Source: a virus | Strand: one strand, 5' to 3' | Length of the DNA stretch: 64,000 nucleotides | Virus record (IMG/VR): IMGVR_UViG_3300037141_000243 | Span: 1 to 64,000 of that record | Shown here: positions 2,107-50,077 of the stretch, in pieces | How positions within the stretch are numbered: the stretch's first letter is position 1 | Layout: every line of letters starts with the position of its first letter | Program-made: the position numbers and the translations under genes | The notes under the pieces: generated by a model | Database searches by the model: none | Told to the model about the DNA's origin: nothing | What the model saw: only the letters and a program-made list of their open reading frames with translations

Positions 2107-3750
2107 TTAGACGATGAGGAAATTGGTAACTGTGATATTGAACAGGATATGGATGAACCCGTTCTGTGTGATGTAGAGCAGGGTCAGGCCATCATATTCA
2201 CCGGTTCCGTAATCGCTGGGACGTTCGGAAACGTAAGCAAGGAACGGCACAGCATTAACTACAACCTTACCGTTATAAGTTCCCGCATCGATGGCGTCGG
2301 TAAAGGCCGGGCCATCTAGGCCGGTTGATATTACCTGACCATTAGCCATGCCAAAGGTCACCGCATTTTGGGCCGTAGTCAGGGCAACGCGTTGCAGCCG
2401 ATTGATGCCCACCTGGTTGTAATAAAGCGGGTTAGTTTTGTTATTGGAGCCGTTGATGATAGCGTTATCAATTTCCAATTGTTCGTTGATCTGAATCCAG
2501 TCAATCGAGTACCAATAGGTCATCTGATTGCCGTCTGCCGTGGTGCCCCAGAACAAGGTGGCCGTGCTGATGCCCCCCTGTGCCCCGGTGCCCACCACAT
2601 TGATGTTGGCGGCTTTAAGGGTGGAAAGCAGGGCGCTGTTGCCTTTGGTGGGATAGGATGTCACCCCATACAGGAAAGTGAAAGCAAAGGGTGGCACCTT
2701 GTTGGTCGCGGACGGGTTCTGATTCAATAGGTTGTAGAAGGCCGACGCTTGACTGAATTCAGTAGGCGTCGTTGCCGGCGCTTCAATAAGGGCGAAGACA
2801 TCCTTCATGGTCTTGGTATAGTAGTGATAATTTGAAAGCGTGGTAGTCACAAAGAAGTAGGTCTGTGCCGTATTGCTTTCATAGTTGGCCAGGAAGGAAA
2901 CAAACGAGCCAACACCATCCCATGAGCGCGGAATCAGGTAAGCGTAGAAATAACCATCCGCCCCCGCCGTATACGCGCTGTTGGGATTGGCAGTAATGTA
3001 GGTGATAAGCGCCGTCACACCGGCGGCGGCTTCACCAGCTCCAAGCTCCAGCACACAAACCCCAATGCTCGACCCCTGAGCAAAGAAGGTTGTCACCATC
3101 TGCACCAACTCGTTTATCCCGCGCGGGGTATAGGTAATGGTGCCGGTAGCCGGCGAGGTTAGCCCGCTGGCAACGGCGTAAGTAAACGTGGTGGCTGTGG
3201 CAACGGTTGCCAAAACCGTGCCGTTGTACCCCGCTATAGTTGACCCTGCGACGGTGGTCCAAAAGGTATCAGCAACGGTACCGAGATCGATTTGGGCATT
3301 ACCACCTGTGATAGTCATGGTCAAAGCCGGGGCAACAGTGTACTCCAGCGTAGTGCCGGCTGAGCCCACCGCCGCGAGGAAATTACCTTCAATAGCAGTA
3401 TGGCTGCCCGTACCCGCCGAGGCACTAATTGAAACCCAGGTATTTGGCCCTTCCCCAAGGCTGGCGGTAAGCGTAAGAACCACCAAGCCCGAGGTCGAGT
3501 TATAAGTACCGGAAGCGATGGTGGTTGTTGCAATGGTTGCAGTCGCGACTGCGCCAGCCGATGTTAGGCTGGAAAGGGTGATCGCCCCCGCCAGCAAAGG
3601 CGTCAGATCAGCAAGCTGGGTCAGCAACGCGCTGTTGCCGGCGGTCAGCGTGGTTCCCCCCTGGCTGATAAGTGCCCCGGTTTCCTGGAGCGTAGCCGGT
3701 GCTGGGGCAACTAGTACGCTGACCTGGACCGTAGTGATGTTATTTGTCAT
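2107..3750 (-). CDS. Tail sheath protein with inserted beta domains
   Basis: 547 residues. The C-terminal third (roughly 300-547: TLLYIT near the end, IDWIQINEQLEIDNAI, VGINRLQRVALTTAQNAV) is typical of contractile sheath subunits, as is the RGINELVQMVTTFF segment. Residues about 78-157 form an inserted beta domain (SGTYN, GTGS, TITGG) that is also present in the decoration protein at 9037-9915. Residues about 165-215 form a second one (TIAGYNGT, TTFTYAVASG). These insertions probably project from the sheath surface. Start ATG 3750 with AAGGAAC seven bases upstream. Its presence defines a myovirus-type tail. Confidence 0.85.
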   Translation of the reverse strand: MTNNITTVQVSVLVAPAPATLQETGALISQGGTTLTAGNSALLTQLADLTPLLAGAITLSSLTSAGAVATATIATTTIASGTYNSTSGLVVLTLTASLGEGPNTWVSISASAGTGSHTAIEGNFLAAVGSAGTTLEYTVAPALTMTITGGNAQIDLGTVADTFWTTVAGSTIAGYNGTVLATVATATTFTYAVASGLTSPATGTITYTPRGINELVQMVTTFFAQGSSIGVCVLELGAGEAAAGVTALITYITANPNSAYTAGADGYFYAYLIPRSWDGVGSFVSFLANYESNTAQTYFFVTTTLSNYHYYTKTMKDVFALIEAPATTPTEFSQASAFYNLLNQNPSATNKVPPFAFTFLYGVTSYPTKGNSALLSTLKAANINVVGTGAQGGISTATLFWGTTADGNQMTYWYSIDWIQINEQLEIDNAIINGSNNKTNPLYYNQVGINRLQRVALTTAQNAVTFGMANGQVISTGLDGPAFTDAIDAGTYNGKVVVNAVPFLAYVSERPSDYGTGEYDGLTLLYITQNGFIHILFNITVTNFLIV

Positions 3751-7303: not shown

Positions 7304-7909
7304 TTAAGTAGTAAGTAGTTCTAGTGCTTTTCTTAGTTTGGCAGCACGTACCCATTCAGATATTCGTTTACCTTGTGCTTTACGTTTTGCTGGTGTCCAA
7401 AAAGCCTTTTGAGCCGTGACAATTTCTGCACGTCGTTTCTTATCGGCCCACATCTCTAAAGATGCTTTTGAACGAATTGCATCTGCTTTGCGTCGAACTT
7501 CGGGGTCTTTCGATCCACCAACAGCGTATTGGTTACCCAACCCGGCTTGACTAATTTTCTTTCTGGCAGATTTGGAAAAAATCATATTTGTAGGGCCTTC
7601 CCCACCATCCGTTCGATTAACAAGCGGGCCTGTTCCTAAATCTTCCCGACCTATTACTTTAATCAAAGCCATTTCCATTTCAACGGCTTCTTTACGCGTT
7701 AAGCCAGTTCTAATTACACAAACAGGTAGCTTACCTTTTGTTCCACGAATAATGCGGGCCAGATGAAGATTAGTGTGTTGACCTCGTAAAGCTCTTTTAA
7801 TGTGCTTAAAAGGTCGGTCTTTATTTCCTTGTCCAACATAACAAGGAATTCCAGTCAAACGAAAATAAATGTAAACACAGAACGCGCACCACGGTATTCT
7901 TTTTGCCAC
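7304..7909 (-). CDS. GIY-YIG homing endonuclease 1
   Basis: 201 residues. The N-terminal GIY-YIG nuclease domain shows VYIYFR followed by GIPCYVGQG (the GIY and YIG strands), then Arg/Lys helices and TRKEAVEMEMALIKVIG with the conserved glutamates, ending GTGPLVNRTDGGEG. The rest is a basic DNA-binding tail with modular repeats (SARKKISQAG, RKAQGKRISEWV). The GTG at 7909 is preferred over a TTG at 7927 because GGGAGG lies five bases before it; the TTG lies inside the leader hairpin. It sits directly after the major capsid gene and shares its 5' leader with the GIY-YIG gene at 49.1-50.0 kb. Such genes spread by cutting alleles that lack them. Confidence 0.88.
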   Translation of the reverse strand: MAKRIPWCAFCVYIYFRLTGIPCYVGQGNKDRPFKHIKRALRGQHTNLHLARIIRGTKGKLPVCVIRTGLTRKEAVEMEMALIKVIGREDLGTGPLVNRTDGGEGPTNMIFSKSARKKISQAGLGNQYAVGGSKDPEVRRKADAIRSKASLEMWADKKRRAEIVTAQKAFWTPAKRKAQGKRISEWVRAAKLRKALELLTT

Positions 7910-7911
7910 AA

Positions 7912-7989
7912 GAACCTCCCGGTTCAATCCAAAGTGAAGACACGGCAGGTAGGTGGATAGCCTACTCTTCGGGGTATCCCCCTAGCCGG
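7912..7989 (-). ncRNA. Conserved structured leader of GIY-YIG gene 1
   Basis: Between the capsid stop and the nuclease start, the minus strand holds in order: CGGCTAGG, a GGGG/CCCC hairpin, CCCCGAA, a GTAGG/CCTAC hairpin whose loop contains ATCCA, TGCCG (pairs with the first CGGC), TGGAT (can pair with the ATCCA loop, a pseudoknot), then GAACC-GGGA-GGTTC, a hairpin with a GNRA loop that contains the ribosome binding site. The same blocks in the same order occur at 49997-50077 before another GIY-YIG gene, with compensating changes in the stems. Function unknown; translational control is the simplest idea. Confidence 0.6.
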
Positions 7990-10881: not shown

Positions 10882-11715
10882 TTAAATAGCGGCTTGTTTG
10901 TTCTTCTTGGCGCGTCTTTTATTAGACGCGATTACCGCTGCGATTGTTCTGGCACGCGTAACAGGGTCAGACATTCGATCTTTAGCTGCTTTGCGATTAA
11001 TTTCTGTTTGTTTTGCGCGATAAATTGGATCGGCCCAATTCTTGTTATTGCGTTTTGTAGTAGCTTCACGCGCTGTAGCCGGCGGGGGTCGCCCATACAT
11101 CGGACTATTCTTTCCAGACATCGAAGCCCGGTATGCTTCATCCGCCCAAAGTTTCTTAGCGGCTTCGCTTGGTTTGCTGCTTGCCAAGCGGCCCCGGCTT
11201 ATACTGTCGCGATGCTCTTGGGTAATTGGTATACCTTTCCTTGGGGAAGGCTTACCTTTATTCCACGCAGGAATACCTTTCTTCCCCGCACTAATAGCAG
11301 CACATTCTTCCAGGGAGCGTTTACGACCTGTTAAGGAAGCTCGTCTTTTTTCATTGGTTTCTTTTGAAGGAATATGACCGGACATACCCTCACCACCATC
11401 AGTGAGATTAGCCAAGCGGCCCGTACCGTTATTAATCCTACCAAATTTAAGAATTAGTATGGATTCATACGCAAGGGCGTCTCTTTCCAAAAGACGCCCG
11501 CGAATAATTTTTCTTGGTACAAACCCCAATTCACGGATACGTTTTCTTATTGCATTTCGCTTGCGGATATTGGTGCAATGCTCATCAACATTTTCAGCGG
11601 CGGAGAAGTTTATACGACGACGCTGCCCTTTTCCAATATAAAAAGGATCAAGCATTTTTACATCCCGGTAAAGACCGTAAACGTAATATATTCTTTTTGA
11701 AACCTTAACTTTCAT
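10882..11715 (-). CDS. GIY-YIG homing endonuclease 2
   Basis: 277 residues. GIY-YIG domain: YYVYGLYRD then PFYIGKGQRRRI, RKRIRELG and YESILILKFGRINNGTG with the catalytic Glu, ending ANLTDGGEG. The C-terminal two thirds contain NUMOD3-like DNA-binding repeats (AWNKGKPSPRKG, SGKNSPMYGRP) and a basic helix. The ATG overlaps the stop of the NUDIX-protease gene as ATGA, so it is translated by coupling rather than from a leader like the other two GIY-YIG genes. It is inserted between protease and scaffold-like genes. Confidence 0.88.
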   Translation of the reverse strand: MKVKVSKRIYYVYGLYRDVKMLDPFYIGKGQRRRINFSAAENVDEHCTNIRKRNAIRKRIRELGFVPRKIIRGRLLERDALAYESILILKFGRINNGTGRLANLTDGGEGMSGHIPSKETNEKRRASLTGRKRSLEECAAISAGKKGIPAWNKGKPSPRKGIPITQEHRDSISRGRLASSKPSEAAKKLWADEAYRASMSGKNSPMYGRPPPATAREATTKRNNKNWADPIYRAKQTEINRKAAKDRMSDPVTRARTIAAVIASNKRRAKKNKQAAI

Positions 11716-12842
11716 CGTGAGCGGGTTACCACGTTTTTAGAGTGAATATGTAAAAGAGTAAAGGCACGACCAAGCTGTCGATCATTATAAAGTGGACGAC
11801 TTTCCTCTTCAACAGCATCCGCAGCAATCTCTTGGTTAAGAACACCAACAGGATCGCCACCTTTATCCCAGACCCCGGCGCGAACGACCGCAATATGATC
11901 GTAAAGACTTGGCAAGCCCTCAATCAACAGTTTGCTACCATCTTCCAATTCAACGGTATTGTTAACCGTGGGATCGCGGAAGACGACACAGGGTGATGTA
12001 GATAATTGTTCATCCCGCATCATGGTGGCGGCTTCGTCATCGTAAATGGCGATGATGCCCCAAACCTCCTGCTCGACCTCTTTCAGGTAAGGCAGCACGG
12101 TTGTCCCGATGATGCGGTCGGCAAATTCCTTGCTATTCAAAAAGCCCTTCTTAGGGTGCTCCATGATGACTGGCTTACCATTACAGCGGGCCAAGAATTC
12201 AGGGGTCATGTAAAGGGCGGGATCGCGCCAGACAAATTCCTTGTGCTTGTGGCGGTAGGCAACCCCGGTTCCTGTAATACGAATGGCAAAGAGCCACATG
12301 TTGTCGTAATGCTGCGGGCTTGTAAGTCGACCATCGGCAATGGCCTGGGCCACCCCGGTCTCGTTCATGGTAAGACGATCAATCGCAATCTGGCAGCCTG
12401 GATGTAAAGGCTGGGGCGGGTTATTCAGTGGTGCCCAGCACCAGCCTACATGTTCCCCGTCCAGCTTTACCATAAACTCATCATCGACCTGCTGTATAAA
12501 CGTGGTGAAGTCCGTCTGTTCCTGGGGCGGGGTCGCAACGAGCGGGGCTGTGGTGGGTTGTGGCGGGCTTTCCAGGGCTGCTATGGGGGCAGGGGCCGGA
12601 ATAGGGCTGGCAAGGGCCTGTGGGGCGCTAATGGAGCGGGTCCAAGGGGTCAAATCCCCCTTGGGGATAGAACCACATTCCTCTTTGGCTTCGCGGACAG
12701 CGCATTCCTCTAGGGTCTCATCGCCTTCCTGCTTGCCGCCGGGGAAGCACCAGTAACCCGGCATGTCGCCTTTGTCAGAACGCTTTAATAGTAAGCAGTT
12801 GCCGTTGGGCGCGATGAAGAGGATTCCGGCGGCGGTAATCAT
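11712..12842 (-). CDS. NUDIX hydrolase - prohead protease (DUF2213-like) fusion
   Basis: 376 residues. Residues 1-90 form a NUDIX domain with a complete box: G36, E42, R50-E51 and E54-E55 followed by G57. A Pro/Ala-rich linker (about 75-110) leads to a second domain with CNGKPVIMEHPKKG (candidate catalytic His), DEQLSTSPCVVF (candidate Ser) and DHIAVVRAG, as in DUF2213-type phage prohead proteases. Such proteases cleave scaffold and capsid during maturation. The role of an attached NUDIX hydrolase, which normally cleaves nucleoside diphosphate compounds, is unclear. Start ATG overlaps the upstream stop (ATGA). Confidence 0.72.
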   Translation of the reverse strand: MITAAGILFIAPNGNCLLLKRSDKGDMPGYWCFPGGKQEGDETLEECAVREAKEECGSIPKGDLTPWTRSISAPQALASPIPAPAPIAALESPPQPTTAPLVATPPQEQTDFTTFIQQVDDEFMVKLDGEHVGWCWAPLNNPPQPLHPGCQIAIDRLTMNETGVAQAIADGRLTSPQHYDNMWLFAIRITGTGVAYRHKHKEFVWRDPALYMTPEFLARCNGKPVIMEHPKKGFLNSKEFADRIIGTTVLPYLKEVEQEVWGIIAIYDDEAATMMRDEQLSTSPCVVFRDPTVNNTVELEDGSKLLIEGLPSLYDHIAVVRAGVWDKGGDPVGVLNQEIAADAVEEESRPLYNDRQLGRAFTLLHIHSKNVVTRSR

Positions 12843-14165: not shown

Positions 14166-16955
14166 TCACGGCGCTACGTCGTAGGCGTACCGCGCCCCGA
14201 CGATATAATTGCTTGAGTTGTGGAGCATCGTTGCAACATAACCGGCGTAGGTCTTGGTGTTTGCGTATCCGAGTTGTGAAGCCCCAGCCAAGACGCCAAA
14301 CGGGTAGCAGGTATAGTCCACTGACGCAGTCAGTCCGACTCGATACCCACCATTAAACTGGTCAATAGCAAGCGCGTCTATCATAGCTTGGGTTAGGGCA
14401 GCCGTGTTGTACCCCTGGGCATACATTGTGATCGGACTTCCAGAACTACCCACTGTCTGAGAGGTGTCTACGGTGTAAGTCCCGACTTGCCCTAACGGAG
14501 AACCCCCCTGCGTAGTAATATGCGTACCGATTGTTACACCCGCCCCAGAAAGCGGCCCGGGATTGATGCTGCCAAAGAATGGCGCGCTTGCCCCAAACGT
14601 AGCACTTGCGGCTGCAAGTTCAGACGCATCAGTAGATATGGCGGTTACAGTTAACGTCGTCCCACTTATGTATCCTGTGAATACTGAGCGGCACAGCGCG
14701 GCTTTATTCCAGTGATAAACTCCCCAGGCTCCAGTAGTCGAAGCATCTCCGGCAGACTGTAAGTAATAATCTCCCGCAGGCAACAATCCGTTACGCGGGG
14801 GCGGTCCGAGGTCTTGATAGAGATAGTCGTTGGCTAGGAAGTAAGGACCACAGTATGCCACGGGCCAACCCGATGTTCCGTTCGTTCTCCAAAGCGTGTT
14901 GTTTAGCGCAAAGGCGAACAACGTAGTAAGACCTGTCGAGACTCCAGCAGTCGTCTCAAGAAGCTGCCCGAGCATCATAGAGGTATTGAAATAGTCATTC
15001 TGCCAGTTCTCGTTCTGTCCTAGCCGTCCTATGTTTCCAGAGAACGCCGGGAAAACGTTGGCCCCGGTCACTCCGGGCTGTGTGATGAAGATTTCTGTAA
15101 AATACGCACAGTTACTTTTCAATAAGGTTAGAAACACCGAGGACGGAAGAAGCCACGCAGGAACCGCACCGTATGTCTGCTCGTAGGTATGGGTGACAAA
15201 CCAGGCGTTGATGAGGGATCGAAAGGCCCAAGCTGCGTCGCGCGTTATTTGCGGTTGTATGACAGGACTGTTCCCAAAGCCGAAGTGGTTAAAATTTCCA
15301 TATAGACTATAAAAATTATAATACTGCGTCTCCATGAAGCCGTCATTGCAATCTTTTTGGGCAGCTTCTATAAAACACGGGTCCCATGTCGCCAAAGCTG
15401 CGATACTTGCAGTATTCGGATAGTGACTCTCATCCATAACTACAGGACTGAGAACTATCGTATCCATGGACTGGCTAGTAATGGGGCTGGGATATCCAAA
15501 TAGGCCATCTATTGCGTATGTACCGATCCCGCCAGGCGTTCCGCTAAGTTGGCTTAGTATCGATCTGCTTTGGAGGGCACCGTTAGGAAATTGCTGGTAA
15601 GGCCCAACAACACCGGAGGCAACGGCGGTTACATTCATCACGCCTGATTGTGAGGACATTGTACAACTGGTTAGATTTCCGGGATTGGCCGCGCCAGACA
15701 TTTGGAACGTCGCTCCAGGAGAGCCGCCAGGGGTTCCTGTTAGCTGGCTGACGATTGTGACGCCAAAATAAATAGTATTTGTTCCGTCAGACCCGGTTAT
15801 ATAATCCCCCGGCCAGAGTGTGCCAGTAATGCCAGACCCCATTATCATAGTGGTGCCAGAGGTCGTGCTTCCGCTGAATGCCCCGGCAACCTCGGCAGTA
15901 AAGATTGCGGCGGCGGGTGAGTTGCTCGCGAGCCACCCGATGCCCTTAACAAAAGGGGTAAGGCCACCTTGACCGTAAGCCCCGTAAGAGTTTGCCCCCG
16001 GATAGGTCGTTAAATTTATCAGTGTATCCCCAGATGACGTCTCATCTCGATACCAATTCGGGATGGCATTTGACCCTTCAGCCCAGTCAAGAAACGCATT
16101 AGCGTAAGTTACGCTTCCGTATGTCGGAGAACCAACACCGCTTGGGTTGATGAGCCACTGGCCCTGAGACTCGGAAATAGCCCCGAGGTCATCGCGTTCG
16201 CCGGTGGCCCCCATTGCCGGATAAATCCCGGCGAGGCTCATCGGGCCGGTGTAAACAACAGGACCACCAGGGCCACCTTTACCTGGGTCCCAAGTGGAAC
16301 CAGAACTGTTGTTCGTGAACGGGTAGGTGATCCCAGTGTAGGGTGTCTGGCTCATTGGGAGATGCCAGCCGTTACTCATTATCGTAGCCGGGGTGTTGGC
16401 TATCGGACGGCGTGCCGACTGATACCGCCAGCGTGTCCACCAATAATGGACAGGAACATTCTGAGTCAGAATTGTTGTGCCATTTTTCTTTAAGACAACG
16501 CTGTATGCGTAACTGACGCTTGGATCATAAATTAAATTATAGGGGCTACCGCTGAAGGCGGTCCCGAACTCGACCATGAGTTCAATTCGACCAGAATATG
16601 CTGGGCTTGCTGCGTCCGGATTGAAGTAAAGTCGGAGGGGACACCCGGCCACCATCAGCCGGTAGTGGTGCATCGTGAAGCTCGGCCCGACGAAATCCCC
16701 GAGGTTCGTCGCGCTCGCCATGTCGAAGGTATAGACACCCCCGCCATTTGCCGGAGCCATCGTAACCGTAGCGACAAGGCCGCCAACAGGAAAGCCGACC
16801 GGCGGGATAACACCCATGTTAAGGGCCTTGACCGGCTTAGGCATTGCCGTGCAGGAGACGGCAAGCGCGAGCCCCACCATAAACCTCCTGCGCGATGGGT
16901 TTGTGCCGTCTGCCGCAATGGTAGTGGCCAATAATTTCGCGCGATATTTAGTCAC
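14166..16955 (-). CDS. Large exported virion protein with Tat-type signal (tail fibre region)
   Basis: 929 residues. The N-terminus has a twin-arginine export signal: SRRRFM at residues 21-26, a hydrophobic core VGLALAVSC, and a likely cleavage after VKA (residue 44). The mature part is Gly/Ser/Thr/Tyr-rich, with an N-terminal beta region, three inserted short repeats of the form LSGTPGGxGTY (around residues 410, 470 and 820), and a middle helical region with many Trp/Tyr (YYNFYSLYGNFNHFGFGN). No known hydrolase motif was identified. It is first downstream of two further exported proteins. Export of a fibre-like protein is odd because tails assemble in the cytoplasm. Confidence 0.65.
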   Translation of the reverse strand: MTKYRAKLLATTIAADGTNPSRRRFMVGLALAVSCTAMPKPVKALNMGVIPPVGFPVGGLVATVTMAPANGGGVYTFDMASATNLGDFVGPSFTMHHYRLMVAGCPLRLYFNPDAASPAYSGRIELMVEFGTAFSGSPYNLIYDPSVSYAYSVVLKKNGTTILTQNVPVHYWWTRWRYQSARRPIANTPATIMSNGWHLPMSQTPYTGITYPFTNNSSGSTWDPGKGGPGGPVVYTGPMSLAGIYPAMGATGERDDLGAISESQGQWLINPSGVGSPTYGSVTYANAFLDWAEGSNAIPNWYRDETSSGDTLINLTTYPGANSYGAYGQGGLTPFVKGIGWLASNSPAAAIFTAEVAGAFSGSTTSGTTMIMGSGITGTLWPGDYITGSDGTNTIYFGVTIVSQLTGTPGGSPGATFQMSGAANPGNLTSCTMSSQSGVMNVTAVASGVVGPYQQFPNGALQSRSILSQLSGTPGGIGTYAIDGLFGYPSPITSQSMDTIVLSPVVMDESHYPNTASIAALATWDPCFIEAAQKDCNDGFMETQYYNFYSLYGNFNHFGFGNSPVIQPQITRDAAWAFRSLINAWFVTHTYEQTYGAVPAWLLPSSVFLTLLKSNCAYFTEIFITQPGVTGANVFPAFSGNIGRLGQNENWQNDYFNTSMMLGQLLETTAGVSTGLTTLFAFALNNTLWRTNGTSGWPVAYCGPYFLANDYLYQDLGPPPRNGLLPAGDYYLQSAGDASTTGAWGVYHWNKAALCRSVFTGYISGTTLTVTAISTDASELAAASATFGASAPFFGSINPGPLSGAGVTIGTHITTQGGSPLGQVGTYTVDTSQTVGSSGSPITMYAQGYNTAALTQAMIDALAIDQFNGGYRVGLTASVDYTCYPFGVLAGASQLGYANTKTYAGYVATMLHNSSNYIVGARYAYDVAP

Positions 16956-16958
16956 GGG

Positions 16959-17933
16959 TCAGCAGCCCAATGCGTTTGCTTGCCACGATGCGCAAGACCA
17001 ATAGCGGAAAGATTGGATATACATATCAATAGCGCTGGGTGGCGAACCACAGTTCGGCTGTCCCCCGCCGCATTGTTCGGCCATCCACATATTAACAATG
17101 TGAAGCTGGCTTTCTGTGTCTGCGGTAGTTGAGCCACTGGTCACGACACTATGATCGTAATACCAGACAATCCCCGGCCCTCCGCCACATGCCCCTGATC
17201 CCACAAATGTTCCGCACCATAAAATTCCGATTGTGTGAAACACTGTTGGGTCGCCGGGCGATACTGAGCCAGACGCACCAGAACTGTTGGTCGTCCCATT
17301 GCACTGTGCATCGCCGGGGCCGTTTGTCTGATGCAAGGTCACATGCAACGTGCTGTCGGTATTGTAGCTCCACTCGTTGTCTATTTCGCTATACGGTGGC
17401 GCTGTTCCAGATACGGGTAATGTGGGAAAGCCTTGTGCCAGACAATTTTTCCCGGTCGTGAGCCCGAGTAACCATTCTGCACCCCATGCGGCAGTGTTGT
17501 TCGGCGTGTATCTTACGACCCACTCATAATAGCCATGACCAAAAGCGCGGTAGGTCGAAAGCGATCTATCGCCGGACGAAATTGTAGGCAACGGGCAAAG
17601 CGTTCCGGGGTTTGTAGTCGGTAGTGGGCATCCAGTTGTTGCAAAGGCTGTTACCCATTGCAGATGAATATTCCCGCTTGCGTCAACGCTGATGTAAGAA
17701 GATGGCACCGAATAAAAGCTCGGCGCTCCTTGCCACAGTCCATTGTGCCACATATGGCCGGCGGCTGTTCCGGTTTGGTCAATGTCAAAGCCGGTAGCTG
17801 CGTCCTGATTGCTGGCAAGCGTTGAGAATAGATTGGCGCTGGCTTCAATCGGCGGGGTTAGGTTTTCAGTCGGAACAACGCCGCCAAAGGCGCAGAGGCT
17901 TGCCCATAGGGCGACGACGATAGTTAGTCGCAT
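16959..17933 (-). CDS. Exported GH16-like glycoside hydrolase (candidate depolymerase)
   Basis: 324 residues. Residues 1-18 form a Sec-type signal (MRLTIVVALWASLCAFGG). The body has the layout of family 16 glycoside hydrolases: GYYEWVVRYTP, AAWGAEWLLGL, then EIDNE at 183-187, matching the GH16 active-site pattern E-x-D-x-E, followed by a His in LHVTLHQT, and FHTIGILW near 235 with YYDHSVV. GH16 enzymes cut beta-glucans and galactans with a retaining mechanism. A role in breaking host surface polysaccharide is likely but unproven. Cys-rich C-terminus suggests disulphides outside the cytoplasm. Confidence 0.7.
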   Translation of the reverse strand: MRLTIVVALWASLCAFGGVVPTENLTPPIEASANLFSTLASNQDAATGFDIDQTGTAAGHMWHNGLWQGAPSFYSVPSSYISVDASGNIHLQWVTAFATTGCPLPTTNPGTLCPLPTISSGDRSLSTYRAFGHGYYEWVVRYTPNNTAAWGAEWLLGLTTGKNCLAQGFPTLPVSGTAPPYSEIDNEWSYNTDSTLHVTLHQTNGPGDAQCNGTTNSSGASGSVSPGDPTVFHTIGILWCGTFVGSGACGGGPGIVWYYDHSVVTSGSTTADTESQLHIVNMWMAEQCGGGQPNCGSPPSAIDMYIQSFRYWSCASWQANALGC

Positions 17934-20312
17934 TTAATTCCCGCCGCGATAATCGTACCAACCAAGCGTATTGAGAGCGACACCTGCCTCCGTTCCATTG
18001 GTATTTATGTCAATTTGCGAAGATGTGTTTGTGCCGACTTCTGCAAAAGCAACTGTGGATGGCACGTACGCATTCGTGTAGCACTGATAATTATTATTCC
18101 CATTGGTGGTGCTGCCTGCGGTTGGGTCGAATAAGACAGTGGCTATAGCAAGTGACGATCCGCAATAGTAATTGAACTTTGCTATGACATTCACGCCAAG
18201 AGGAACTGTTAAAGTTGTGGCAGTTGTTCCAGAACTTAATGTCGCGCTGCTTAAATCTCCAACCGGCGCTGTCCAGATGAAATTTCCGCCTCGTTGCGTG
18301 TAGGCAATGATATGCGCAGAGCCGTCCGTCTTGAACGAACCAAGCCGTCGATATTCTGACCCGGTAATACCGCTTGGCTTGTTGGCGCATGTTGCCGAAG
18401 TGTCGAACGAATAATCCGTTGTCCCGGCGTTTTTCCATTCGCAGACGTGATACCAAGTCGAATTAGCAATCGTGAGGCCGTTCCCCATGCCATTGCTGCC
18501 AGAGCCCGATGCCCAAGCGCCAGCGGTTGATTTGGTGAAGGCTGCCGCCGTCAGTTCATCGGTATTAGTGCTGTCAGCCGCTTGGCAAGCTGCAATGTCA
18601 AGAATGCTGTTAGGTGTGCCGCCATCATTCGAGAGGGTGCAACCGCCGATGCTGTTATAGACAACAGATGATCCGCCGCCGCCCGATGAATTTATCGTGC
18701 AAGATATGGACGAAGAACTGTTGCAGGTACCGGAAACCGTAACGTTGGTTCCGGCGATAATGTCAACGCTCGAAACGCCGCTGCCAGCACCTGTGTTGCA
18801 ATTAATGACCGTGCCGGAAGATGTGTAAGTGCAATAATCGCCATTGGTCAGCGTGCCAAACGTAACGGTCGCGCCAGGCATCTGGGCGGCGGCAACTGCT
18901 CCGCTGATATTGGTGAACGCAGGCTGCGCCGAACTCCACACACCATTGGCGCTCAATCCAGTAAGGAAATTGTTCGTGACTGGCGTAAAGGCCGGAACGA
19001 TGTTTGCCGAGATCGCTGACCATGCGCCGGTCCCAACCTTTTTCAGAATGTACCAGCCGTAGGTATTGTCTACCTGGATGGAGGCATTGACGCCGTTGAT
19101 CGTGTCGGTGCCGTTTGGAGCGACTAAAAGATGATAAGTGGCTCCAACCGCGCCGCAATCGCCAACCACAATCTCCTGCCCGGTCGTGTAGCTGGTCGTA
19201 GCCAGCAGCGAGAGAGTGCGATTTGCGGTGAACGTGGTCGAGAAGCAAGCCGCCTTATCGGTACTCGCCATCGTGTAATTGCTGTCGGCGGCGTGATTGG
19301 TAAGCTGTGCTTCGGTGAATGTGGCGCTGCCCGCGCTGCCGCTTACCGTAAAGCCAAGGCCAGCCGATAGTGTTGCGGTATTGGTAACGCTGTTGCCGAG
19401 AAGGTCTTGGGTAGTTAGGGGTGAACCGCTACTGGTCGATGTAATAATACCCCCCGTGCAGGTGATCGTAGTCCCGTCGCACTTGACGCCGCCGAAGGCC
19501 GCCGTCGTGGCCAACGGAAGGATCGAAGGGGTGAGGAGGCCACCGCTTGTTGTCTCAACGATGGTGCTGTTGCCGGTCAGGCCGTAAGGAAGCTCCTGGA
19601 GAACACCGCTCGTGTCGATTTCCACGCGCCCGCTCGTACCGGAAGTTATGGTCGTCGATCCAACCGTTAGGCCGCCGGACCCGGCGGGGGTGGACCACGT
19701 ATTGTCGCCGCGAAGATACGTTGTGCTGCCGGGCGTACCAGTCGCTGTCGTTCCGGTCGAAGCTACGAGCCCGCCCGCATTCGTCAGCGTAAGCGAAGAC
19801 GGAGTTCCACCAGCACCGTTGAATAGAACAGGAGCGCCGGCTGAGCCAACGTTTACCCCAAGGGCTGTAAGAATACCGGTCCCGGTTGTAGTAGTCGATG
19901 GCGCTGATCCAGCCCCGCCACCAATCACCAAGGCGCTCGTCGCAAGCACCCCGCTGGAAAGCCACGTGCTGCTGCTATTGAAATACGGGATACCGCCGCT
20001 GGTGCCGGCAACCGTAAACGCCAAGGTACCCGTGCTTGTAATCGGGGAGCCGGCAATTGAAAGCAGGCCGCCAACAAAAGTCGCGCCAACATGGGTAACT
20101 GTTCCGCTACCGGTACCGCCACCGGTACCGCACGCATTACCGTTCGCATCCATCGTGCCTTGAAGCAAAGACCCCACCGTATAGGTAGGCGCTCCGCATG
20201 ACGCGACGACCCGGTATTGCGGGCCAGCACCAGAGCTGATCCCTTGTGAAACAGCAGGGCCAATAAACGCAAACGCAAATAGCGGTGCGGCAAAGAGTAA
20301 TTTTCTGATCAT
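17934..20312 (-). CDS. Tail fibre-like repeat protein with Sec signal peptide
   Basis: 792 residues. It starts MIRKLLFAAPLFAFAFIGPA with probable cleavage near AVSQG. The mature protein is built from Gly/Thr/Ser-rich repeats (TYLRGDNTWSTPAG, GVWSSAQPAFTNISGAV), characteristic of phage fibres and adhesins, with long beta stretches and a C-terminal domain about 560-792 (SDGGTPNSILDIAACQAADS, FKTDGSAHIIAYTQRGG). The start overlaps the stop of the next gene upstream as ATGA. Likely receptor-binding fibre. The signal peptide is clear to the eye and unusual for a fibre. Confidence 0.7.
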   Translation of the reverse strand: MIRKLLFAAPLFAFAFIGPAVSQGISSGAGPQYRVVASCGAPTYTVGSLLQGTMDANGNACGTGGGTGSGTVTHVGATFVGGLLSIAGSPITSTGTLAFTVAGTSGGIPYFNSSSTWLSSGVLATSALVIGGGAGSAPSTTTTGTGILTALGVNVGSAGAPVLFNGAGGTPSSLTLTNAGGLVASTGTTATGTPGSTTYLRGDNTWSTPAGSGGLTVGSTTITSGTSGRVEIDTSGVLQELPYGLTGNSTIVETTSGGLLTPSILPLATTAAFGGVKCDGTTITCTGGIITSTSSGSPLTTQDLLGNSVTNTATLSAGLGFTVSGSAGSATFTEAQLTNHAADSNYTMASTDKAACFSTTFTANRTLSLLATTSYTTGQEIVVGDCGAVGATYHLLVAPNGTDTINGVNASIQVDNTYGWYILKKVGTGAWSAISANIVPAFTPVTNNFLTGLSANGVWSSAQPAFTNISGAVAAAQMPGATVTFGTLTNGDYCTYTSSGTVINCNTGAGSGVSSVDIIAGTNVTVSGTCNSSSSISCTINSSGGGGSSVVYNSIGGCTLSNDGGTPNSILDIAACQAADSTNTDELTAAAFTKSTAGAWASGSGSNGMGNGLTIANSTWYHVCEWKNAGTTDYSFDTSATCANKPSGITGSEYRRLGSFKTDGSAHIIAYTQRGGNFIWTAPVGDLSSATLSSGTTATTLTVPLGVNVIAKFNYYCGSSLAIATVLFDPTAGSTTNGNNNYQCYTNAYVPSTVAFAEVGTNTSSQIDINTNGTEAGVALNTLGWYDYRGGN

Positions 20313-20680
20313 TGGAATTGCCCCGTCAAGATTTGCATGTTGGTCATATTCGCGGTCGATCCTGTGGTGTTGGCAATGGCAGCTACAAAGGAAAGGTAAG
20401 GCACCTTGTCTGTAGTGCCGACAGACCCCGGCGTTGCAATAACCAAAGCCTGGGTCGATACATCAATCAGGATAGTCCCGGCCAGATCGGCGTAGCGGGT
20501 AACCGTAAGAGTTACCGCCTGATCAGATGTTGCGTAGAAAACTATCCCGCCAAAACCTGCCGGCATAAGATCAGATGACCATGTCCCGGTAGTGGCTACC
20601 AAGCTCGCGGGAAATGGAATAGGTGGCACAGCGGGCATCGTCCCACAATTTGGGTAAGATTTCAGAGGCGTAAGAGCCAT
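20309..20680 (-). CDS. Small beta-rich protein of the fibre cluster
   Basis: 123 residues, start ATG 20680. It looks like a compact beta sandwich: WSSDLMPAGFGGIVFYATSDQAVTLTV, RYADLAGTILIDVS, and VPYLSFVAAIANTTGSTANM. Such modules in phages are often attachment or head-fibre proteins. It overlaps the downstream fibre gene by four bases, so the two are co-translated. Precise role not recognised. Confidence 0.55.
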   Translation of the reverse strand: MALTPLKSYPNCGTMPAVPPIPFPASLVATTGTWSSDLMPAGFGGIVFYATSDQAVTLTVTRYADLAGTILIDVSTQALVIATPGSVGTTDKVPYLSFVAAIANTTGSTANMTNMQILTGQFQ

Positions 20681-20774: not shown

Positions 20775-21611
20775 TTAGGCATTCTGTTGTTCGCGCACAG
20801 CCTTGAGGGCGTCGCGACCCTTAGCCGTTATCATGGACGCGGGGAGGTCCGAGATTGAGTATTGATACTCGTAATGGCAAGAACAGTAAATTAGCTCCCC
20901 AGGTTTTTCAATGCTATCCGTGTAACCATTGGGACCTTTGTTCATAAACCCCGCCTTCATCGCCCAATTGTTCTTGACGGCGTAAATCTTACCCTCGCGG
21001 GCAATATGCTCAGGCCGCGGATCATAGCCGGCGCGTCGTCCTGTGTGACGCCAGATGGCAGCAATAGCCCCGCCATCGGTTGCGATGATCTCGTTGATCG
21101 CAGACACCAGCTTGGCGTTCTGGTCAATGAGTACCCGGCGCTCTTCAAAGGGCAGGCCCTTAACCGCTTTCTTGATGCCCTTCTTGGCGTCAACCTTATC
21201 GGTCGCCTTGCTGCCGCCCTTGGGTATGGATGTAGCCCAACCCTGGAAGCGGCGTAAGGTGGCTTCCGTCATCTCCTCGCGATTCAATTTGATCAGGCTG
21301 GCGCTCGCCATGATGCGGCGATCCAGCTCGGCGCGAAGGTGGGGTGCGATGCGGTCTATTGTAAAGCGTTCCACGCCTTGGTGGAATTGTGCGATGTTGC
21401 CTTGCTCGATCATCTTCTTGTAAGTCAGGGTCAGCACCTCACGCAACATTTCATCTAATTTGTAGAGTGGCACAAAGCTGGTATCAATTGCGTCACGCAG
21501 GCGCTTGGTCCAGTAGGCCACGCGAGCGGGATCGTCGTAGCCATGCTCCGCCATATTGGCGACTGCCTCATTCAAAATTGAATAGAAGTCGTCCCGTTTA
21601 TTGGGGGGCAT
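20775..21611 (-). CDS. Minor head / head morphogenesis protein (Mu F-like)
   Basis: 278 residues. The C-terminus carries the pattern of the Mu F / SPP1 gp7 minor head family: IWRHTGRRAGYDPRPEHIAR, EGKIYAV, GYTDSIEKPGELIYCSCHYEYQY. The N-terminal part is helical. These proteins enter the prohead near the portal and are injected or aid assembly. It is two genes downstream of the portal, the expected order. The ATG overlaps the upstream stop as TAATG. Confidence 0.75.
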   Translation of the reverse strand: MPPNKRDDFYSILNEAVANMAEHGYDDPARVAYWTKRLRDAIDTSFVPLYKLDEMLREVLTLTYKKMIEQGNIAQFHQGVERFTIDRIAPHLRAELDRRIMASASLIKLNREEMTEATLRRFQGWATSIPKGGSKATDKVDAKKGIKKAVKGLPFEERRVLIDQNAKLVSAINEIIATDGGAIAAIWRHTGRRAGYDPRPEHIAREGKIYAVKNNWAMKAGFMNKGPNGYTDSIEKPGELIYCSCHYEYQYSISDLPASMITAKGRDALKAVREQQNA

Positions 21612-36342: not shown

Positions 36343-38340
36343 CTACCCACCCAGCACTAAAGTACCGCAGGCCAGCACGAGAGGGCTGATCCCATCGCCT
36401 TGCGCGAAAGGCTGCGCGAAGGCTTCCAGCACGGCGAACAGGCTACCTTTGGGCTCGCCCTTGGTGCCCATAATGACCGAAGTCACATAGCCGCGTACAA
36501 CGTGGCGAATTGATTCCGGATTGACATCCTTTTCCTTCAGACCAACCAGGATATCCCTGATTTCACCCCAGGGCCGTCCCGCTACCAAGGCACGGGCCAA
36601 ATCGACCGCCTCGGTGCTTTCCTCGGCGCTACGGAGCAGATCACGGGCTTCCTCGATGGTCTTGGCCCCGGCACACGCACCCAGCGCAACAAGGCCAGCA
36701 CGCGGGCTGCCGTGCGCCTCCTTGGCGCAGAGCGATACGATTTGACGGCCCGCACCCGTCTGAAGGATTTTCTCGGCAACGGCTACGCTTTCTAACAGGT
36801 CGATGATCAGGTTGGTTGGTACATCTTTTAAGTTGTAAGCCGTGCAGCGGGTTTTGATATTGGTGGGGATTTTCCCCAGCTCGGTCGTGCAGAGGCACCA
36901 CCACGTATCTGGCGGCGGCTCTTCCAATGATTTAAGCAGGGACGCCCATGCCGGCGCTCCGAGGCGATGGCAATTATGCACCAATACATTATTTACAAAA
37001 TATGACGGATGCTTTTCAATCTCTAAATCGTAGAACGTGACATAGCCATCACACAACGCTTGATCTCGGTTACAACTTGCGGGCAAAATTTCAATACCTG
37101 CTCGTTGGTAACTCGTAACACTGTCCACCCTAAAGATTCCAGTTTCTTTTCCTTTTTGCGATCCTTCGCTTGATTTCGTTCCGAATTGTGCCCTTTCCCA
37201 TCTACTTCTATTGCTAATTTTATATGCGGAAAAGCCAAATCCACTTTGTAATTTGTAGGGTATCCGGGTAACCTTTTCCCCAAAGAAACAGCAAACTCTA
37301 CCGCACAGTTCAAACGCTTTAGTAACATAACCTGGGGCTTCGTTAGTTTTCCATTCCCACCCCGATTTTCCGGAAGAATTAAGTTCGTCCCATTTTTTAT
37401 TCTGGTAGCTATAATTTTGTCGATTACATCCCGTCGTTTTGTGGGGTTGTTTTTCTGCATCCGTTTGGAAGACAAACGGTCCAGCTTTTTGTAATACTCC
37501 GGGGAACGAATACGAGATTCCAAAACCCCACGAGAAACAGCTTCTTTCCAATAATCTGGACGCGGCCCAGTTCTTTTTGATGCCCCCAACTCGTCTCCAC
37601 AAACTTTCGAACAAGTCTGAATTCCCAAACCATTTGAACGCACATAAAAAGGCTCCCCACAAACCGGGCACTGCCTTCGCAGGCAAGTGGTGCAAGTTAT
37701 TTTGTTTGGCGCTCTGGCTTGAAAACTTATCCCACATGAGGAGCAAGTTTTGGTCCAACGTCTTTTTGCTCTGTAATTCATCACCAATTTGTAGATCGCA
37801 CGCGGCAACCCACCCCCTAGCTGTAAAAAACAAATGCTCTTTAGAGCAACAAATAGAGGATGATCCTATGCTTATTTGCATAACCCTTGCAAGAGGAATC
37901 TTGGACCGAAAAACAGAACTAACCCGCGACAACCCAAGCCCGCACACAATTTCTTGCCCCACACCAATCTGCTCAATTGGCAAAAACCCATTACCAACAT
38001 CAATCAACGTTCCTGGAGCAAAACATTCATCTACAATAATCACGCGGGCCTGGCTGCGACCGTGCATTTTGTAGCCCAAGGTTTCGGTAATCCGCCTCAT
38101 GTCATCGATGCTGGTAAAAGTCGCAGCGTCGATCTCCTGAATGGCGTGGTCCTTGGCCCCCACTTCGGTAGCAAGGATGCGGGCCAACGTGGTCTTGCCC
38201 GTACCCGATGGACCGGAGAACAAAAAGGTGTGGTTGCTCTTGGATTTGAGGACACGCCGCAAGGATGTAACCACGGCGTCCTGACCGATCACATCTTCAA
38301 AGGTCTTGGGACGGTATTTAAGGTAGAGGGATTCGGTCAT
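36343..38340 (-). CDS. Clamp loader ATPase interrupted by an intein
   Basis: 665 residues as read. Exteins: residues 1-105 with the AAA+ N-terminus (LYLKYRPKTFEDVIGQ, Walker A GPSGTGKTT at 43-51, VIIVDE Walker B) and 457-665 (CHRLGAPAWASLLKSLEEPP, KIPTNIKTRC, C-terminal helical domain). Joined, they make a 314-residue DnaX/RFC-like loader with the DECH box restored. The intein is inserted inside the DECH box, exactly between E105 and C457. The loader opens and loads the sliding clamp (candidate at 43337-44356). Confidence 0.88.
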   Translation of the reverse strand: MTESLYLKYRPKTFEDVIGQDAVVTSLRRVLKSKSNHTFLFSGPSGTGKTTLARILATEVGAKDHAIQEIDAATFTSIDDMRRITETLGYKMHGRSQARVIIVDECFAPGTLIDVGNGFLPIEQIGVGQEIVCGLGLSRVSSVFRSKIPLARVMQISIGSSSICCSKEHLFFTARGWVAACDLQIGDELQSKKTLDQNLLLMWDKFSSQSAKQNNLHHLPAKAVPGLWGAFLCAFKWFGNSDLFESLWRRVGGIKKNWAASRLLERSCFSWGFGISYSFPGVLQKAGPFVFQTDAEKQPHKTTGCNRQNYSYQNKKWDELNSSGKSGWEWKTNEAPGYVTKAFELCGRVCCFFGEKVTRIPYKLQSGFGFSAYKISNRSRWERAQFGTKSSEGSQKGKETGIFRVDSVTSYQRAGIEILPASCNRDQALCDGYVTFYDLEIEKHPSYFVNNVLVHNCHRLGAPAWASLLKSLEEPPPDTWWCLCTTELGKIPTNIKTRCTAYNLKDVPTNLIIDLLESVAVAEKILQTGAGRQIVSLCAKEAHGSPRAGLVALGACAGAKTIEEARDLLRSAEESTEAVDLARALVAGRPWGEIRDILVGLKEKDVNPESIRHVVRGYVTSVIMGTKGEPKGSLFAVLEAFAQPFAQGDGISPLVLACGTLVLGG
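36973..38025 (-). mobile_element. Intein in clamp loader Walker B, 351 residues
   Basis: Residues 106-456 of the clamp-loader frame. Block A: Cys1 in CFAPGTLI. Block B: CSKEHLFFT with its conserved His, then GWVAACDLQIGDEL. Blocks F/G: FYDLEIEKHPSYFVNNVLVHN, with His-Asn at the end and Cys as the +1 extein residue. These are the residues for class 1 protein splicing. The frame is open throughout, yet the middle 215-250 residues look like no endonuclease and instead lie over a different, out-of-frame nuclease gene. Confidence 0.85.
37023..37781 (-). CDS. Vsr/DUF559-type (EDxHD-like) homing endonuclease nested in intein
   Basis: 252 residues read in the +1 frame relative to the intein; start ATG 37781 (TTG at 37808 also in frame). 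N-terminus has three Cys clusters (CSSCG, CTTCLRRQCPVCG, CSKVCG), probably zinc fingers for DNA binding. The C-terminus YKVDLAFPHIKLAIEVDGKG, then ERNQAKDRKKEKKLESLGWTVLRV, is a Vsr/DUF559-like nuclease fold, as in the I-Bth0305I family found with introns and fractured inteins. The whole gene lies inside the intein coding sequence (36973-38025). Confidence 0.75.
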   Translation of the reverse strand: MNYRAKRRWTKTCSSCGISFQARAPNKITCTTCLRRQCPVCGEPFYVRSNGLGIQTCSKVCGDELGASKRTGPRPDYWKEAVSRGVLESRIRSPEYYKKLDRLSSKRMQKNNPTKRRDVIDKIIATRIKNGTNLILPENRGGNGKLTKPQVMLLKRLNCAVEFAVSLGKRLPGYPTNYKVDLAFPHIKLAIEVDGKGHNSERNQAKDRKKEKKLESLGWTVLRVTNEQVLKFCPQVVTEIKRCVMAMSRSTI

Positions 38341-49131: not shown

Positions 49132-49995
49132 CTATTTGGGCTTAGGGGGTTTACCATGCTTTTCCCGCCATTTGACCCAGCCAGCACTCATGGCAGCACA
49201 AGTCTTTTTACGAAAATCTAAGTCATTCTCCCAGCGGGCAGAATACCTAATACCGGCGGCTTTTAATTTTGCCACTACATCTGACCGCCCCATAGCCTGT
49301 TTAACAGCGACCTTTCTCCGTTCCTTCACACCAGGTTTTGCATTAGCCGCTTTAAGAATTTTACCTAAATTAGCACGCCACTTTGGATCGGCCCTTGTCG
49401 CTTTGTGTTTAGCTTTCACTTCCGGACGACTATACGCTTCCTTTGCTTTGGTGCTTTGTCCTTTACGCCAAACTACATCCGCGTGGGCTACCCTACATCT
49501 TTCCTTCACATCAGGCCGAAGATGAGCCGCTTTAAGAATTTTATTTCTTCTCTCTAAGAAACCCGGTTTCCGTAAAGTTGCCAAAGCAGCTTCTCTTTTC
49601 TTTGCTTTTACCTCCGGTTTTGCCAACGTCTCTTTAAGTACCATCGCCCTTCTCTTTCTGGCATCATCAGAAAGGGCTACTAAACCATCACCCCCGCACG
49701 TCATATTTGCTAAAGTACCAGTACCAAGATCAAGTCTACCATATCTAGTAATTAATCTTATTTCTAAAGCAACCGCCTCTGATTTAGTCAGACCCCCGGC
49801 AAAAACTTCATACAAAAGATTTTCAGCACCGTATTTACGAATGATGTTTCTAAAAATATTCTTTCGCTTTGCGGGTCGCTTTGCTGCTCTCAAATGTTCT
49901 TCTTTACGCTGTTTTCTTTTGCTTACCCCAATATAACACAGCACGCCATTAGGACGGCGGAATTGGTAAACGTAATATATGCCTAAACGTTTCAT
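49132..49995 (-). CDS. GIY-YIG homing endonuclease 3 with repeated DNA-binding modules
   Basis: 287 residues from ATG 49995, five bases after GGGAGG in the leader hairpin. GIY-YIG domain: YYVYQFRRPNGVLCYIGVSKR, RNIIRKYG, LEIRLITRYGRLDLGTGTL, ending MTCGGDGLVAL. The C-terminal half has about six copies of a short basic unit around xPxVKxRxxxA (for example PEVKAKKREAAL, PDVKERCRVAH, PGVKERRKVAV). It is placed immediately after the SNF2 helicase gene and shares its leader with GIY-YIG gene 1. Confidence 0.87.
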   Translation of the reverse strand: MKRLGIYYVYQFRRPNGVLCYIGVSKRKQRKEEHLRAAKRPAKRKNIFRNIIRKYGAENLLYEVFAGGLTKSEAVALEIRLITRYGRLDLGTGTLANMTCGGDGLVALSDDARKRRAMVLKETLAKPEVKAKKREAALATLRKPGFLERRNKILKAAHLRPDVKERCRVAHADVVWRKGQSTKAKEAYSRPEVKAKHKATRADPKWRANLGKILKAANAKPGVKERRKVAVKQAMGRSDVVAKLKAAGIRYSARWENDLDFRKKTCAAMSAGWVKWREKHGKPPKPK

Positions 49996-49996
49996 C

Positions 49997-50077
49997 AAAA
50001 CCTCCCGGTTCGATCTATCCTGGGAAAAAGCGCGGCAGCCAGTTGGATGGACTGGTTTTCGGGGATCAACCTAGCCG
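49997..50077 (-). ncRNA. Conserved structured leader of GIY-YIG gene 3
   Basis: Same ordered blocks as at 7912-7989: CGGCTAGG, GAT, CCCCGAA, a CCAGT/ACTGG hairpin with CCATCCA loop, CTGCCG closing on CGGC, GGAT able to pair with the ATCC loop, then AACC-GGGA-GGTT holding the ribosome site. The hairpin stem differs in sequence from that at 7.9 kb but is paired in both, which supports a conserved RNA structure. It begins ten bases after the helicase stop codon. Confidence 0.6.

Follow-up and report, generated by a model that had tools for sequence, protein, structure and literature searches.

Does a tailed phage send a large protein encoded among its head genes out of the host cytoplasm by the twin-arginine (Tat) route? 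The question is raised by a gene for a 929-aa protein in a 72.8-kb virus record (G000), of which we analyzed one stretch of 64,000 nt, called the window here. The host of the virus is bacterial. Pantoea phage PdC23 and Shewanella phage QDWS belong to the group that the virus matches in its terminase, portal, head-morphogenesis and capsid genes. The gene for the 929-aa protein starts with GTG, 3 nt past the TGA that ends the gene upstream, with which it shares its frame, and the N-terminus of its product reads MTKYRAKLLATTIAADGTNP-SRRRFM-VGLALAVSCTAMPKP-VKA-LN. Within residues 21-45, SRRRFM is followed by an uncharged, moderately hydrophobic core and by VKA, an AxA-like cut site:

14166..16955, minus strand: 929-aa ORF, the predicted phage member of a secreted bacterial family (ORF call, bacterial homologues, tree)
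16821..16955, minus strand: putative Tat signal peptide, residues 1-45, cleaved after VKA (motif rule, and Tat signals in the corresponding position of three of four short homologues)
16878..16895, minus strand: twin-arginine motif SRRRFM, residues 21-26 (ORF translation and motif rule)

Signals were called heuristically, with a TATFIND-like rule made for this analysis and a rule of the same kind for Sec-type signals. Of 29,180 shuffled N-termini the Tat rule picks out 17 (0.06%), and across 1,459 scanned ORFs it gave three hits besides copies of the 929-aa gene. A contig from a second metagenome contains an identical 20.8-kb stretch with zero mismatches, so the Tat-like N-terminus is not an assembly error. 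A sequence-only reading had described this product as a phage fibre-region protein with a Tat-type signal. The motif, core and cut site are indeed present and rare in shuffled sequence, but the label of fibre region does not fit, as the gene lies in the head block.

The interval between the head-morphogenesis gene and the nudix/prohead gene spans 7.9 kb in the window and holds the genes for the 123-, 792-, 324- and 929-aa proteins together with a 394-aa gene:

20775..21611, minus strand: head morphogenesis gene, one flank (phrog_324)
20309..20680, minus strand: 123-aa ORF that opens the insert, without a signal (ORF list and signal rule)
17934..20312, minus strand: 792-aa fibre-like protein with a predicted Sec-type signal (signal rule; C-terminal match to fibre-like phage proteins)
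16959..17933, minus strand: 324-aa protein with a predicted Sec-type signal and a GH16-like pattern (signal rule; colinear GH16 match, not significant)
17373..17387, minus strand: EIDNE, residues 183-187 of the 324-aa protein, at the position of the GH16 catalytic motif (colinear GH16 comparison)
11712..12842, minus strand: nudix/prohead-region gene, the other flank (gene order against PdC23)

PdC23 and QDWS share their head-gene order with the window virus, and their terminase and capsid proteins are 46-54% identical to its own, but their interval between the same two flanking genes lacks the cassette. Nine relatives in all lack it here (PdC23, QDWS, L010, L014, L019, L020, L107, L109 and L110), the nudix/prohead-region gene coming directly, or at most about 1.2 kb, after the head-morphogenesis gene. 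A tenth, L016, has a 1,442-aa ORF at the cassette site, which indicates that the site does accept inserts. In the cassette genes, third-position GC runs from 53 to 58%, as against 62-71% in seven genes for head and tail; the nudix gene (58%), however, does not differ from the cassette. Scans of the cassette for promoters and terminators found sites no more commonly than in shuffled sequence. Absent from syntenic relatives and different in composition, the cassette is best read as accessory, or moron-like. Baseplate and fibre genes of the ordinary kind, identified by gene order against PdC23, lie at 5290-8529 of L026 and are signal-less. We rejected the 929-aa protein as a phage tail fibre: its gene is in the head block, the fibre locus is elsewhere, and neither similarity to fibres nor a phage homologue was detected.

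The 792-, 324- and 929-aa ORFs are consecutive, the 929-aa ORF being the third, and they are the sole ORFs of the window to which the heuristic rules assign a signal. The Sec-type N-termini read MIRKLLFAAPLFAFAFIGPAVSQG in the 792-aa protein and MRLTIVVALWASLCAFGG in the 324-aa protein; in the part of the record outside the window there is one further signal-bearing ORF, lipoprotein-like, in the lysis region. The three genes share a frame, but we set aside the idea that they yield a single read-through product, because every one of them begins with a signal peptide of its own. In its C-terminal part the 792-aa protein matches fibre-like proteins from a Bradyrhizobium phage and from a Pseudomonas phage, both signal-less, and its similarity to the ordinary fibre of this phage is not significant. 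When the 324-aa protein is compared with GH16, EIDNE falls in register with ExDx(x)E, but the score is within the shuffle range; just two marginal matches to this protein were found in genomes. After the signal, the 792-aa protein has 16 cysteines (2.1%) and the 324-aa protein 10 (3.3%), compared to 0.58% in other structural-region proteins, and the 929-aa protein contains 0.9%. These contents fit periplasmic oxidative folding of Sec substrates and cytoplasmic folding of Tat substrates. A general cysteine trend was rejected, as it fails in other viruses.

Signals also occur near structural genes elsewhere. Runs of two or three adjoining signal-bearing genes stand at fibre-like ORFs in the viral contigs L044, L095 and L097. 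An overall excess of signals on ORFs with fibre motifs in other viruses was rejected (4 of 86, compared to 28 of 676 other ORFs). On L022, a phage contig whose relatedness shows in the portal gene, the terminase and portal genes flank a small ORF (L022:2811-3161, plus strand) with an N-terminus, MAISRRNVVTGAAAALTSIALPVRKA, that fits a Tat signal. The short pre-sheath gene at L107:13391-13888 (plus strand) has a Sec-type signal, and its counterparts at that place in other relatives are signal-less. In a Caballeronia prophage, the capsid gene is followed by one (L110:11644-12120, plus strand) for a 158-aa protein whose Sec-type signal is clear and which had no match among phages by tblastn.

Where the 929-aa protein comes from is best seen in bacterial genomes. 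When we searched 385 genomes belonging to a single class, entered via an Acetobacteraceae MAG and therefore presumably Alphaproteobacteria, four homologues of 520-540 aa came up (best E value 1e-16). All four match two blocks of the phage protein:

15960..16748, minus strand: first block common to the bacterial homologues, residues 70-332 (homologue alignment)
15468..15944, minus strand: insert missing from the homologues, residues ~338-496 (alignment gap)
14838..15434, minus strand: second block common to the bacterial homologues, residues 508-706 (homologue alignment)
14340..14624, minus strand: C-terminal insert, residues ~778-872 (alignment; part of it resembles a stretch within a phage record)

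Since almost nothing separates the two blocks in the homologues, the phage copy appears to have an insert of ~160 residues between them and another near its C-terminus. Three of the four short proteins carry a Tat signal at the N-terminus, in the same position as in the phage protein, and the fourth has no signal. These short Tat-signal proteins (L112, L113, L138; G150, G017, G373), which belong to an unnamed family, share the two homologous blocks with the phage protein at 25-30% identity; unlike it, they are chromosomal and lack both inserts. The genes beside the bacterial homologues, in the cases that we read, look chromosomal and not phage-like. In a tree, the phage protein falls inside the clade of the four short proteins with support of 100/100, on a long branch.

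A profile search extended the family to longer, more distant members in the same class and in that to which a Caballeronia genome belongs. These longer homologues (L117-L129 and others) have a PcRGLX-like domain at the N-terminus and keep the same core motifs, but they differ from the phage protein in that extra domain, in their length of 630-930 aa or more and in their 17-19% identity, and they fall outside the phage clade. Where complete N-termini could be read, they are mostly Sec-signal-like, and three distant members end in GlyGly-CTERM-like tails. Such tails point to the cell surface or to type II secretion. The PcRGLX N-terminal domain aligns weakly and in distant members only, and membership in PL26/PcRGLX was rejected because the homologous alpha/alpha toroid domain did not align. 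Beyond this family, searches of phages, plasmids, viral contigs and genome contigs gave no direct relative of the 929-aa protein besides the identical contig, and we found no match in curated libraries including Pfam and no credible match in a PDB profile search; AlphaFold models built without an alignment were unusable (pLDDT 34 and 31). A polysaccharide-enzyme role for the protein is a guess.

With Tat signals in three of the short homologues and mostly Sec-type signals in the distant ones, the sequences give good support to the view that bacteria secrete the members of this family; the phage probably acquired its copy complete with the signal, and inserts then enlarged it. The sequence-only interpretation is partly supported: the Tat signal on the 929-aa protein has support from its own sequence and, more strongly, from its homologues. 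The paradox in the sequence-only reading, a fibre that leaves the cytoplasm, mostly dissolves because no fibre similarity was detected, the relatives are chromosomal and look secreted, and the gene sits in an insert with two other signal-bearing genes. We therefore lean, if only slightly, towards regarding the 929-aa protein as a Tat-exported member of this unnamed family, captured by the phage and encoded by the last of three genes in a putative exported cassette. For the cassette as a whole, the best reading is that its products would be exported, accessory and active at the host envelope or outside.

Judging by position and strand, the cassette would be expressed late, with the head genes. 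The 929-aa protein would then fold in the cytoplasm during late infection, be carried in folded form to the periplasm by TatABC and be cleaved by signal peptidase after VKA. Its 792- and 324-aa partners would exit via Sec and may form disulfides in the periplasm, and the products would act in or beyond the host envelope. The GH16-like and fibre-like partners suggest that the most likely job of the products would be to bind and trim surface or extracellular polysaccharide, which could release progeny from a matrix or limit further phage adsorption to the infected cell and its debris. Periplasmic action by an exported phage protein has a precedent in T4 Spackle (gp61.3), whose N-terminal signal is cut and which works in the periplasm (PMC7650644). 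Spackle differs from the 929-aa protein in being a 97-aa lysozyme inhibitor with a Sec-type signal, and we claim no sequence relation between the two. Titles and abstracts, which cover the literature in part, yielded no report of a Tat-exported phage protein, and by that measure such proteins are little described. If the proposed mechanism is true, a tailed phage employs both host Sec and Tat to deliver the large proteins of one cassette beyond the cytoplasm, including one taken from a secreted bacterial family.

The best-surviving alternative, which we nonetheless consider doubtful, concerns the start codon. The arginine codons of the 929-aa gene are CGC AGG AGG, and they contain a candidate ribosome-binding site:

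16884..16889, minus strand: AGGAGG, Shine-Dalgarno-like, inside the Arg codons (3 nt before ATG26, 6 nt before GTG27)

Were the true start the ATG of residue 26 or the GTG of residue 27, the twin arginines would be this ribosome-binding site and the product would lack a Tat motif, retaining just an uncharged hydrophobic start. The site is a perfect Shine-Dalgarno sequence close ahead of ATG26, is the sole in-frame AGG AGG among ~49 Arg pairs, and recurs 5-10 nt before three other genes of the phage. The upstream GTG has no good Shine-Dalgarno sequence, and codons 2-25 score equivocally, between coding and non-coding. However, RR-x-F-L/M-x-G and the core are common to homologues whose Arg codons are not AGG AGG, and for this reason we favor the upstream GTG. 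Additionally, translation from residue 26 or 27 would strip the hydrophobic core of any preceding positive charge, and the position of GTG1 just past a stop fits translational coupling. The case carries a caution: tandem AGG AGG codons, when they form a ribosome-binding site, can look like a twin-arginine motif.

Less probable still is that the 929-aa protein, as a decoration or side enzyme, belongs to the virion, either exported and then rejoining particles after lysis or kept in by an inefficient signal. Its gene does lie inside the head-gene block beside a fibre-like 792-aa neighbor, and the signal-bearing pre-sheath gene of L107 resembles a short structural gene that other relatives carry. 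Yet the family is otherwise chromosomal and by its signals secreted, and the ordinary fibre is located elsewhere and is signal-less. We give little credence to a dual-start gene, in which GTG1 would yield the Tat-exported form and AGGAGG would direct a second start at ATG26 or GTG27 for a cytoplasmic product, possibly in the virion; if true, a single motif, overlapping in RNA and protein, would route one gene product to two places. That the hydrophobic N-termini serve assembly or membrane contact and nothing leaves the cell is equally improbable: the signal calls come from a heuristic and not from SignalP, but three adjoining genes have complete signal anatomy, found nowhere else in the window, and the 929-aa protein has homologues that look exported.

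The window holds several other features of note. The 292-aa protein encoded at 9037-9915 matches all of the 211-aa phage family phrog_6268, and so seemingly carries an extra module of ~80 residues; a sheath-like ORF at 2107-3750 is similar in wording to this ORF. As read from the sequence, a replication-factor-C/DnaX-like ORF at 36343-38340 seems broken by an intein-like stretch, and three ORFs (7304-7927, 10882-11715 and 49132-49998) appear to resemble GIY-YIG homing endonucleases.
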